A stretch of 64,000 nucleotides of DNA. It comes from a virus. The number at the start of each line of letters is the position of its first letter. Positions within the stretch are counted from its first letter, which is position 1. Location of the stretch: positions 1-64,000 of the IMG/VR virus record IMGVR_UViG_3300025435_001056. One strand, given 5' to 3'. The notes under the pieces are model-generated. The model had not been told where the DNA came from. It was given only the letters and a program-made list of their open reading frames with translations, and made no database searches. The position numbers and the translations under genes were made by a program. Shown here one piece after another: positions 60,047 through 62,253 of this stretch.

Positions 60047-60054
60047 TATAAATA
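60047..60054 (+). promoter_or_regulatory. Perfect late promoter box TATAAATA
   Basis: Exact consensus. Predicted +1 at 60060 is the first bases of the hairpin at 60059. Confidence 0.75.
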
Positions 60055-60058
60055 TACA

Positions 60059-60083
60059 AGTAGATGCCCAGGTGGGGTCTACT
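60059..60083 (+). ncRNA. 5'-terminal stem-loop element, copy A
   Basis: AGTAGA pairs with TCTACT, with an inner CCC/GGG stem, TG and G bulges and a short AGGT loop. It shares its plan and conserved core (GATGCC ... GGGTC) with copy B at 62224, while the outer stem differs by compensatory changes. Confidence 0.6.
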
Positions 60084-60115
60084 TTATTACTTGCTTATTT
60101 TTAAGGAGAAATTAC

Positions 60116-60142
60116 ATGTCAAAGCAAATCTATCTGACCTAG
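60116..60142 (+). CDS. Eight-codon micro-ORF behind late promoter
   Basis: ATG TCA AAG CAA ATC TAT CTG ACC TAG (MSKQIYLT) follows a strong SD (AAGGAG, seven bases before). The leader matches that of hsp20 (ACTTGCTTATTTTTAAGGAGAA against ACTTCGTTTATTTTAAAGGAG, in part). It is either a real leader peptide or the remains of a late gene lost when the groES promoter region arrived. Confidence 0.4.
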   Translation: MSKQIYLT

Positions 60143-60183
60143 CGTCACACTCCCAAAAATTTATTCAATTAACAACATAGTTG

Positions 60184-60212
60184 TTGACACATTCCTCTGT
60201 TTGTGTTATACT
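60184..60212 (+). promoter_or_regulatory. Sigma70-type promoter of groES-groEL (TTGACA-N17-TATACT)
   Basis: Perfect -35 at 60184 and -10 at 60207 with a 17-base spacer, leaving a 37-base leader with SD AAGGAG. Confidence 0.85.
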
Positions 60213-60255
60213 CTATTGTTGTAGCATTATCATTTTACATTTAAAAGGAGTTGTA

Positions 60256-60543
60256 ATGAATTTAAAACCTATTCGAGATCGTATCGTTATTCGATTAATT
60301 GAAGCAGAAACTGCTACTAAATCTGGAATTATTATTCCAGATGCTGCTACAGAAAAACCCAGTCAAGGCACAGTATTGGCTGCTGGCCCTGGGCGTATCA
60401 CTGAAGATGGCACACTAATTCCAACCGAAGTAAAGATTGGTGATCAGGTGTTATTTGGAAAACATGCCGGACAACCAATCAAAGTTGGCGGCGAAGAACT
60501 TCACATCCTCAAAGAAGATGATGTAATGGCAATTGTAGAATAA
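60256..60543 (+). CDS. groES: GroES co-chaperonin
   Basis: A 95-residue GroES with the family pattern [19 protein letters not shown] (the mobile loop after it, KSGIIIPD), KVGDQV-like [13 protein letters not shown] and the C-terminal [12 protein letters not shown]. It caps GroEL during folding. T4 supplies only a partial substitute (gp31), whereas this phage carries a bacterial-type GroES together with GroEL. It has its own host-type promoter and strong SD, so expression early in infection is likely. Confidence 0.97.
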
Positions 60544-60553
60544 GGAAAATATT

Positions 60554-62191
60554 ATGACAGCAAAACAAGTAGTTTTTGGCGATAATGGTCGCAATAAATT
60601 GGTCGAAGGCGTTAATGTATTAGCAGACGCAGTTAAAGTTACTCTAGGACCAAAGGGTCGCAATGTAGTGATTGAGCGTAGCTTTGGTAGTCCGCATGTG
60701 ACCAAAGATGGCGTTACCGTTGCTAAGGAAATTGAGCTAGAAGATAAACTTGCTAACATGGGCGCACAGATGGTCAAAGAAGTAGCCAGCCGCACAGCAG
60801 ACAATGCCGGTGATGGAACAACTACCGCAACTGTTTTAGCTCAGTCGATTGTGCGTGAAGGCATGAAGTATGTTGTATCAGGCCATAACCCAATGGATTT
60901 GAAGCGCGGTATTGATCAAGCGGTAACTGCTGCAGTTCAAGAACTCACCAATATCAGCAAACCTTGTACTACTACCAAAGAAATTGCTCAAGTTGGTAGT
61001 ATCAGTGCAAACAGTGATGCAGACATTGGCAATATCATTGCAGAAGCAATGGAAAAAGTAGGCAAAGAAGGTGTTATCACTGTTGAAGATGGTAAAGGTC
61101 TACAAAACGAATTAGACGTAGTTGAAGGTATGCAGTTTGACCGCGGTTATCTAAGTCCATACTTTATCAATAATTCAGACAAACAAGTGTCGGTGCTTGA
61201 TAATCCATTTATCTTGTTGGTAGATAAAAAGATTTCAAACATTCGTGATCTGTTACCAGTATTGGAAGCGGTAAACAAGGCAGGTAAACCATTGTTGATT
61301 GTTGCCGAGGATGTTGAAAGTGAAGCTCTTGCTACTTTGGTAGTTAACTCAATGCGTGGTATCTTGAAGACCTGTGCTGTTAAGGCTCCAGGCTTTGGTG
61401 ATCGTCGCAAAGCTATGTTAGAAGACATTGCGATTTTGACTGGCGGACAAGTCATTGCCGAAGAAACTGGACTTACACTTGAAAAAGCAACAGTGGAGCA
61501 TTTAGGTATGGCTGCCCGTGTGGAAGTCAACAAAGAAAATACCATCATCATTGATGGTGCTGGTGATACTACTGCAATCGAAGCTCGGGTTAAAGCAATC
61601 CGCACACAAGTTAAAGAAGCCACTAGCGACTATGACAAAGAAAAATTGCAAGAGCGTGTTGCTAAATTGGCAGGCGGTGTTGCAGTGATTCGTGTTGGTG
61701 CTGCTACTGAAACAGAAATGAAAGAAAAGAAGGATCGCATCGATGATGCTCTTCATGCTACTCGTGCTGCTGTCGAAGATGGTATTGTTGCTGGCGGCGG
61801 TGTAGCGCTCATTCGTGCTAAACAGGCTATTGTTAACTTGAAAGGTCTAAATGCAGATCAACAAGCCGGTATTAGTATTGTAGCTCGTGCCATGGAAGAG
61901 CCTGCTCGTTGTATTGCTTTTAATGCTGGTGATCCTGCAGATGTAATTGTTAATGAAATTGCCAGCAACTTTGGCAATTATGGTTATAACGCTGCAACAG
62001 GCACCTATGGTGATATGGTAGAACAAGGTGTTATTGATCCTACTAAAGTTACTAAAACTGCCTTGATTAATGCCGCAAGTATTGCTGGATTGATTCTGAC
62101 TACCGACTGTTCAATTGCACAAATTCCGCAAAAAGAACAGCCTGCTAGCCCGAGCATGGGTGGTATGGGTGGTATGGGCGGCATGATGTAA
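60554..62191 (+). CDS. groEL: GroEL chaperonin
   Basis: The 545-residue protein is full-length Gro[19 protein letters not shown], the ATP-site [33 protein letters not shown], and the Gly/Met tail ([10 protein letters not shown]). Ten bases separate it from groES. A complete phage GroES/GroEL pair would fold abundant capsid or other virion proteins independent of the host. Sequence is bacterial-like, so acquisition from a proteobacterium is probable. Confidence 0.98.
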
Positions 62192-62213
62192 TTGATAGAT
62201 TAAACAAATCTAT

Positions 62214-62221
62214 TATAAATA
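62214..62221 (+). promoter_or_regulatory. Perfect late promoter box TATAAATA
   Basis: Exact consensus, just after groEL. Predicted +1 at 62227 lies in the first bases of the hairpin. Confidence 0.75.
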
Positions 62222-62223
62222 AT

Positions 62224-62253
62224 AGTGTGGATGCCGATGGTCGGGTCCACACT
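62224..62253 (+). ncRNA. 5'-terminal stem-loop element, copy B (hsp20 leader)
   Basis: AGTGTGGA pairs with TCCACACT. The inner stem CCG/CGG is separated by a TG bulge and a G bulge around ATGGT. Core bases match copy A, and the outer stem has two paired changes relative to it. Confidence 0.6.

Follow-up and report, generated by a model that had tools for sequence, protein, structure and literature searches.

Gene order and promoters of the locus

The window analysed here, a 64-kb stretch of DNA, comes from a virus record of 176,632 bases with T4-type genes, and between positions 58396 and 63095 it harbors a proteostasis cluster of the order clpX - bS21 - orf - groES - groEL - hsp20 - clpS. 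Pfam searches confirmed the genes for clpX (58396), the ribosomal protein bS21 (59595), groES (60256-60543, + strand; Cpn10, 1.2e-30), groEL (60554-62191, + strand; Cpn60_TCP1, 4.8e-76), hsp20 (62287-62727, + strand; HSP20, 9.5e-17) and clpS (62784), leaving the small orf at 59816 as the only gene of the cluster without such confirmation. The hsp20 product is an IbpA-like small heat shock protein (sHsp) carrying an arginine at the position corresponding to R93. An hsp20 gene adjoining or close to clpS is also present in Pseudomonas phage PA5oct (L373) and Sinorhizobium phage Phosso (L144). The site of action of bS21 is near the Shine-Dalgarno (SD) site of the ribosome, and a link of this protein to leader control is therefore conceivable.

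Two copies of a structured leader are located in this cluster on the + strand, copy 1 upstream of groESL and copy 2 directly upstream of hsp20. Each begins with a hairpin (hairpin I; 60058-60084 in copy 1 and 62222-62255 in copy 2) built around a GATGCC..GGGTC core, followed by a second hairpin containing the SD. The late promoter boxes originally placed at 60047 and 62214 are both present as TATAAATA (60047-60054 and 62214-62221, + strand). In copy 1, this box is preceded by TTGACA (60024-60029) at a spacing of 17 nt, and the resulting promoter (60024-60054, + strand) can be read from its sequence both as a sigma70 -35/-10 pair and as a T4-type late box; the motif TTGAC-N16-18-TATAAATA occurs nowhere else in the record. 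Copy 2 has a weaker -35 element, TTGATA, at 62192-62197. Taken by itself, TATAAATA is not more frequent in the window than expected by chance, but its distance of 7-10 nt from the core is far from chance across the leaders. As judged from 125 non-redundant leaders, NATAAATA is present within 45 nt upstream of the core in 80 cases, 73 of which have it exactly 7-10 nt upstream (0.7% in random stretches), and a TTGAC[AT]-N15-19-(-10) pair is present in 32 (again 0.7% in random stretches), including 24 that have NATAAATA too. This conserved spacing places the beginning of hairpin I at, or only a few bases from, the expected start of the transcript, in agreement with the original prediction, which had the hairpins begin at the predicted start of transcription. 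The accompanying designation of the genes as late finds support in NATAAATA; the promoter of copy 1, however, can equally be read as a perfect sigma70-type match, TTGACA-17-TATAAA, so that this copy may not be confined to late transcription.

The view of copy 1 as a leader of chaperone genes likewise requires qualification. It does lie upstream of groESL, but not directly before groES, and the frame it serves is a predicted mini-ORF in between, MSKQIYLT* (60116-60142, + strand). This mini-ORF is conserved in ten related phages as 8 codons of the type MSK[QH]xx[LV]T*, with MQICDHLT* in L024. Its stop codon is part of a block, TGACCTAGCGTCA (60135-60147, + strand), which contains an inverted repeat TGAC-N5-GTCA and is kept in the window clade, even where the preceding codons differ as in L024. 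The conserved block at the stop codon, in the interval 60116-60147 between copy 1 and groES, can also be given as CTGACCTAGCGTCA. The sequence CTGACCTAGCGTC occurs once in the record, and all ten related phages share the order mini-ORF, CTGACCTAGCGTC, sigma70-type promoter and groES; in the window, the groESL promoter is predicted as TTGACA-17-TATACT at 60184-60212 (+ strand), a layout shared by the relatives. More distant phages have the leader together with unrelated ORFs of 11-14 codons at the place of the mini-ORF (L057, L060, L063), and a function of the encoded peptide beyond the window clade is therefore unsupported. The mini-ORF may possibly be regulatory, or else represent the remnant of a displaced gene. 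In several relatives, the same upstream region leads directly into hsp20.

Structure of the two leaders

Both hairpins of the original prediction were recovered and fold better than shuffled sequences, with z-scores of -3.1 (copy 1) and -3.1 (copy 2) for the isolated hairpins and of -2.3 (copy 1) and -4.2 (copy 2) for the full leaders. The proposed conservation of the core is borne out by two occurrences of GATGCC-N-GGGTC in the window against 0.12 expected. A third GATGCC..GGGTC match at record position 78885 was discarded; it is without ROSE context and unmatched by R1, a covariance model built from 32 viral leaders. The outer stems of the two copies, GTAGA/TCTAC and GTGGA/TCCAC, indeed differ by a truly compensatory change, with pairing maintained across relatives: if leaders are anchored on the core alone, the outer three positions form standard pairs in 99, 96 and 86% of the 94 leaders among the matches listed, compared to 54, 45 and 48% (maxima of 65, 59 and 63%) after shuffling the arms between leaders, and to 29% in seven chance core matches lacking an SD. 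Sequence conservation without preserved pairing, the outcome named beforehand as speaking against a structured RNA, is thus not what these 94 leaders exhibit. In an alignment of 32 sequences, 94.9% of the cells pair, 52 cells are changed on both sides (13.8 after shuffling), and the covariation score amounts to 0.343, compared to 0.128 for shuffled alignments and at most 0.103 with slid partners, a control that preserves relatedness. Note that the DNA scan described below already required GATGCC/GGGTC in its pattern, so that the invariance of the core among those matches is given by construction. However, leaders found via the Hsp20 protein, and hence unselected on the core, mostly contain the same bulged G beside a U-G or C-G pair. 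What had been described as a TG bulge and a G bulge is more aptly interpreted as one U-G pair and a single bulged G, which is located at 60066 in copy 1.

The second hairpin is weaker than hairpin I in each leader, and its anti-SD strand faces AGGAG across a bulged G, which is recognizable from the sequence in both copies, but offset by one position. In copy 1 (60090-60108, + strand), CUUGCUU is opposed to AAGGAG with the bulged G of the ROSE UUGCU motif, as indicated by the sequence and the alignment to ROSE_3, whereas hairpin II of copy 2 (62255-62292, + strand) combines CUUCGUU/AAAGGAG over the SD with a UGUCA/UGACA stem over the start codon. The similarity noted earlier between the two downstream leader regions is present, but reflects a second, SD-pairing hairpin with a proposed function rather than a plain leader. 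Of the 169 AGGAG sites of the record, only those of the two copies are combined with such an anti-SD, and the literal CTTGCTT..AGGAG occurs in copy 1 alone. A UYGCU strand facing the SD is found in copy 1 (CUUGCUU, 60090) and most relatives, while the CUUCGUU variant of copy 2, which lacks a literal UYGCU, recurs in L013, L014, L032 and L053. Helix II is 91.6% paired in the 32-sequence alignment with the bulged G left out; since it is nearly invariant, its support comes from conservation and likeness to ROSE, not from covariation. The start-codon stem is confined to copy 2 of the window, copy 1 having the start AUGUCA and no such stem. Across leaders, GUCA immediately 5' of the anti-SD was observed in 46 of 92 leaders with an AUGAC start, these GUCA leaders being largely one clade, versus 1 of 70 leaders with other starts, the exception (L186) starting with AUGAUGACA.

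Relationship to ROSE elements and occurrence in phages

ROSE RNA heat sensors are a known type of regulatory element at bacterial heat-shock genes. The two hairpins of the window are the front halves of ROSE-like leaders, probably RNA thermometers, with a two-hairpin layout, which amends the initial failure to recognise a named RNA family. Rfam gave no match in the window at gathering level; a search in E-value mode, however, brought up ROSE_3 (RF02523), which aligns in full length to copy 1 (60058-60121, 40.1 bits, E 3.5e-6) and copy 2 (62225-62292, 28.9 bits, E 0.0024). Neither copy reaches the gathering cut-off of 43 bits, nor does any of 19 viral records exceed it, and the leaders are therefore classed as a ROSE-like variant and not as members of ROSE_3. 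PhotoRC-II and other cyanophage leader families, which had been considered first, were dropped as Rfam returned no match to them.

The closest known counterparts are the short ROSE-like thermometers of Pseudomonas ibpA genes (RF02523; PMC3669281), which share with the phage leaders the two hairpins, the length of about 65 nt, a GATGCC..GGGT hairpin I with a bulged G, a hairpin II pairing UYGCU with the SD, and an sHsp gene behind. The phage leaders differ by scores of 24-40 bits with RF02523, under its cut-off of 43, by an A+U-rich hairpin II without G-C clamps, by a late/sigma70 promoter box instead of the sigma32 promoter thought to be used by Pseudomonas ibpA, by targets beyond sHsps (groES, dnaK, the mini-ORF), and by the CUUCGUU strand of copy 2. 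Classical ROSE elements (RF00435; Bradyrhizobium hspA, E. coli ibpA) also have the UYGCU anti-SD, the bulged G and sHsp genes in common with the phage leaders, but consist of three to four hairpins rather than two; a Sphingomonad relative scores below the RF00435 cut-off, and the phages give no score. As for further traits of ROSE elements, a stable hairpin 5' of the thermosensor is present as hairpin I according to folding and covariation, and the location in the 5' UTR of an sHsp gene applies to copy 2, whereas copy 1 precedes the mini-ORF and groESL. Published accounts count only few phage RNA thermometers (PMC10586365, PMC11182007). Those of lambda cIII, SP-beta blyA (fourU; PMC10586365) and a sigma70 gene (fourU; PMC11182007) are likewise phage leaders with a temperature-responsive structure, but isolated cases of other types, none of them ROSE-like or linked to chaperones. 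No ROSE element in phages was found in the open-access literature, in which the leader described here is apparently undescribed.

Of 42 viral loci harboring a relative of hsp20, the leaders of 39 were inspected, and nearly all of these exhibit a hairpin, followed by CUUGCUU or a variant and then the SD. A pattern scan of viral contigs based on DNA only, without a protein query, yielded at least 120 stretches; among the matches listed, the SD is in place in 94 of 101 distinct ones, and the genes behind mostly code for Hsp20, others for DnaK or, in a few cases, for small unnamed proteins. The same leader type precedes dnaK in L090, L166, L193, L196, L205, L218, L221 and L247, and small proteins of 65-74 amino acids without a Pfam match in L163, L191 and L270. 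In another phage group (L094, L106, L115 to L131), the leader is located directly 5' of groES.

The covariance-model search suggested together with the original prediction was performed with R1 and uncovered many further copies. Within the 176.6-kb record, R1 recognizes the two copies only (E-values of 5.7e-10 and 2.5e-9, the next being 4.2), with bit scores of 52.5 for copy 1 and 55.3 for copy 2. It also detects the hsp20 leader at E<0.01 in 26 of 27 phage-collection records, a sample consisting mostly of cyanophages. These comprise all ten records picked by hsp20 similarity, a set which includes S-CREM1 from the training set and the unverified, Pseudomonas-like record Y7, as well as 16 of 17 more spread down the match list, the remaining one giving 0.38. 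The Y7 leader attains 69.2 bits with ROSE_3. Rfam reported no ROSE in any of the eight phage-collection records to which it was applied, and the four RNAs listed for S-CREM1 in a published Rfam scan (PMC9964418) do not include its ROSE-like leader, which scores 51.9 bits with R1, S-CREM1 being part of the training. A Pseudomonas-type ROSE leader excluded from the training is matched at 8.5e-5. All 28 bacterial relatives inspected contain UYGCU before the SD, but mostly in combination with a different 5' hairpin, and few of them score with R1. The ROSE-like leader is a divergent phage branch and very widespread in T4-like aquatic phages. In P-HM2, the start of hsp20 appears to be annotated too far upstream, as the R1 match (341-400) lies inside the annotated gene (L368, 323-400). 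IbpA-like genes resembling host DNA were encountered in several phage-collection records, namely L143 (OQ572409.1) and hits H3-H7, among them an unverified Pseudomonas phage as well as records of Salmonella and Campylobacter phages.

Thermometer reading and alternative explanations

The best explanation, to which we assign a probability of roughly 0.7, is that both copies function as ROSE-like RNA thermometer leaders, encoded by the phage and gating chaperone translation. Transcription from the T4-type late box, which doubles as a sigma70 -10 element in some leaders, would begin with hairpin I or shortly 5' of it. Hairpin I would then form a stable 5' hairpin, and hairpin II would hold the SD, in copy 2 together with the start codon, against the U(U/C)GCU-type strand with its bulged G. 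Warming is expected to melt hairpin II and to set the SD free, resulting in more translation of the gene behind, which would be hsp20 for copy 2 and, for copy 1, the mini-ORF preceding groESL. In addition, phage Hsp20 may bind and repress the leader until it is titrated by misfolded protein, by analogy to IbpA of E. coli. Points against the thermometer reading are the scores of both copies under the Rfam cut-off, the CUUCGUU of copy 2 in place of a literal UYGCU, the near invariance of helix II, the folding results given below, and the fact that copy 1 serves an 8-codon ORF and not a chaperone directly.

A temperature response of the phage leaders appears plausible from their likeness to Pseudomonas leaders that have two hairpins arranged in the same way and are proven thermometers (PMC3669281). 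Nearest-neighbour folding between 5 and 48 °C indicated no clear switch in either window copy, copy 1 leaving the SD unpaired at 0.55-0.67 and copy 2 at 0.40-0.44, compared to 0.01-0.27 for a Pseudomonas-type control, with an energy model that ignores non-canonical pairs. The SD exposure of other genes in the phage is similar to that of the window copies. If folded in isolation, hairpin II of copy 1 has a ROSE geometry at 10 °C; by 20 °C it has partly opened.

These weak predicted switches would also fit a leader acting mainly as a protein-responsive operator, which is repressed by Hsp20 and relieved when aggregated protein removes Hsp20 during infection, temperature being secondary. IbpA of E. 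coli, Cedecea and Vibrio represses its own leader in dependence on Arg93 (PMC10474464), the phages have a leader of the same kind with an Arg93-type sHsp behind, and of 84 distinct phage sHsp segments, 76, including that of the window, have Arg at this position and 82 have Arg or Lys at position 97, as counted with a loose residue pattern that also caught a few unrelated proteins. Moreover, the bulged G and the fixed core of hairpin I are conserved beyond the needs of pairing. Some feedback of Hsp20 on the phage leader therefore seems conceivable from the E. coli precedent and the kept Arg. However, position 98, a requirement in E. coli, is usually non-cationic in the phages, Arg93 is general among IbpA-type proteins, the binding itself is putative, and the leaders of dnaK and groES would require repression in trans. 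We consider operator function as the main role unlikely.

Even less probable is that hairpin I only stabilises the 5' ends of late mRNAs, with CUUGCUU serving as a translation enhancer or standby site and without any switch. Such a stabilising role of hairpin I was proposed by Krajewski et al. (PMC3669281), and it would agree with a hairpin beginning at the expected transcript end and with the weak predicted closure of the SD, but the element is linked to chaperone genes and not to late genes in general, with two copies per 176.6 kb, its anti-SD with the bulged G matches ROSE and is common to the bacterial relatives, and the start-codon stem of copy 2 would hinder rather than help translation. 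Of the regulatory or protective module originally envisaged for chaperone genes, the regulatory part is well supported, whereas a purely protective role explains less. That the inverted repeat serves a transcription factor as DNA operator, as might be suspected from a dyad directly 3' of a promoter box at heat-shock genes, is hardly credible and was rejected because of the free compensatory changes of the hairpin arms: the outer arms vary as long as pairing stays, contrary to the behavior of a DNA site recognized by its sequence, the asymmetric G bulge is retained, and anti-SD and SD are always coupled downstream.

The thermometer reading may be extended to the tentative and rather doubtful proposal that aquatic T4-like phages share a folding-stress regulon, in which ROSE-derived leaders behind phage promoters control hsp20, groESL and dnaK. 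Hsp20 would bind hairpin I, translation would answer to misfolded virion protein with temperature as one input, and the mini-ORF of the window clade would extend the control to groESL. One ROSE-like type occurs at hsp20 of nearly all phage-collection records sampled, yet is overlooked by Rfam-based annotation, and its many natural variants lend themselves to asking for the role of the conserved ROSE hairpin I and whether sHsps read it. Its occurrence also suggests that temperature or folding load influences the supply of chaperones in infected aquatic bacteria.

Two further features were observed in passing. A viral contig (L034) contains a glutamine riboswitch (RF01739, 53 bits) near hsp20 at 994-1042 on the - strand, and four ORFs of the window (6031-7164, 27748-28857, 30270-31280 and 37303-38181) carry CxxxCxxC-like motifs, from which they may be taken as candidates for radical SAM-like proteins.
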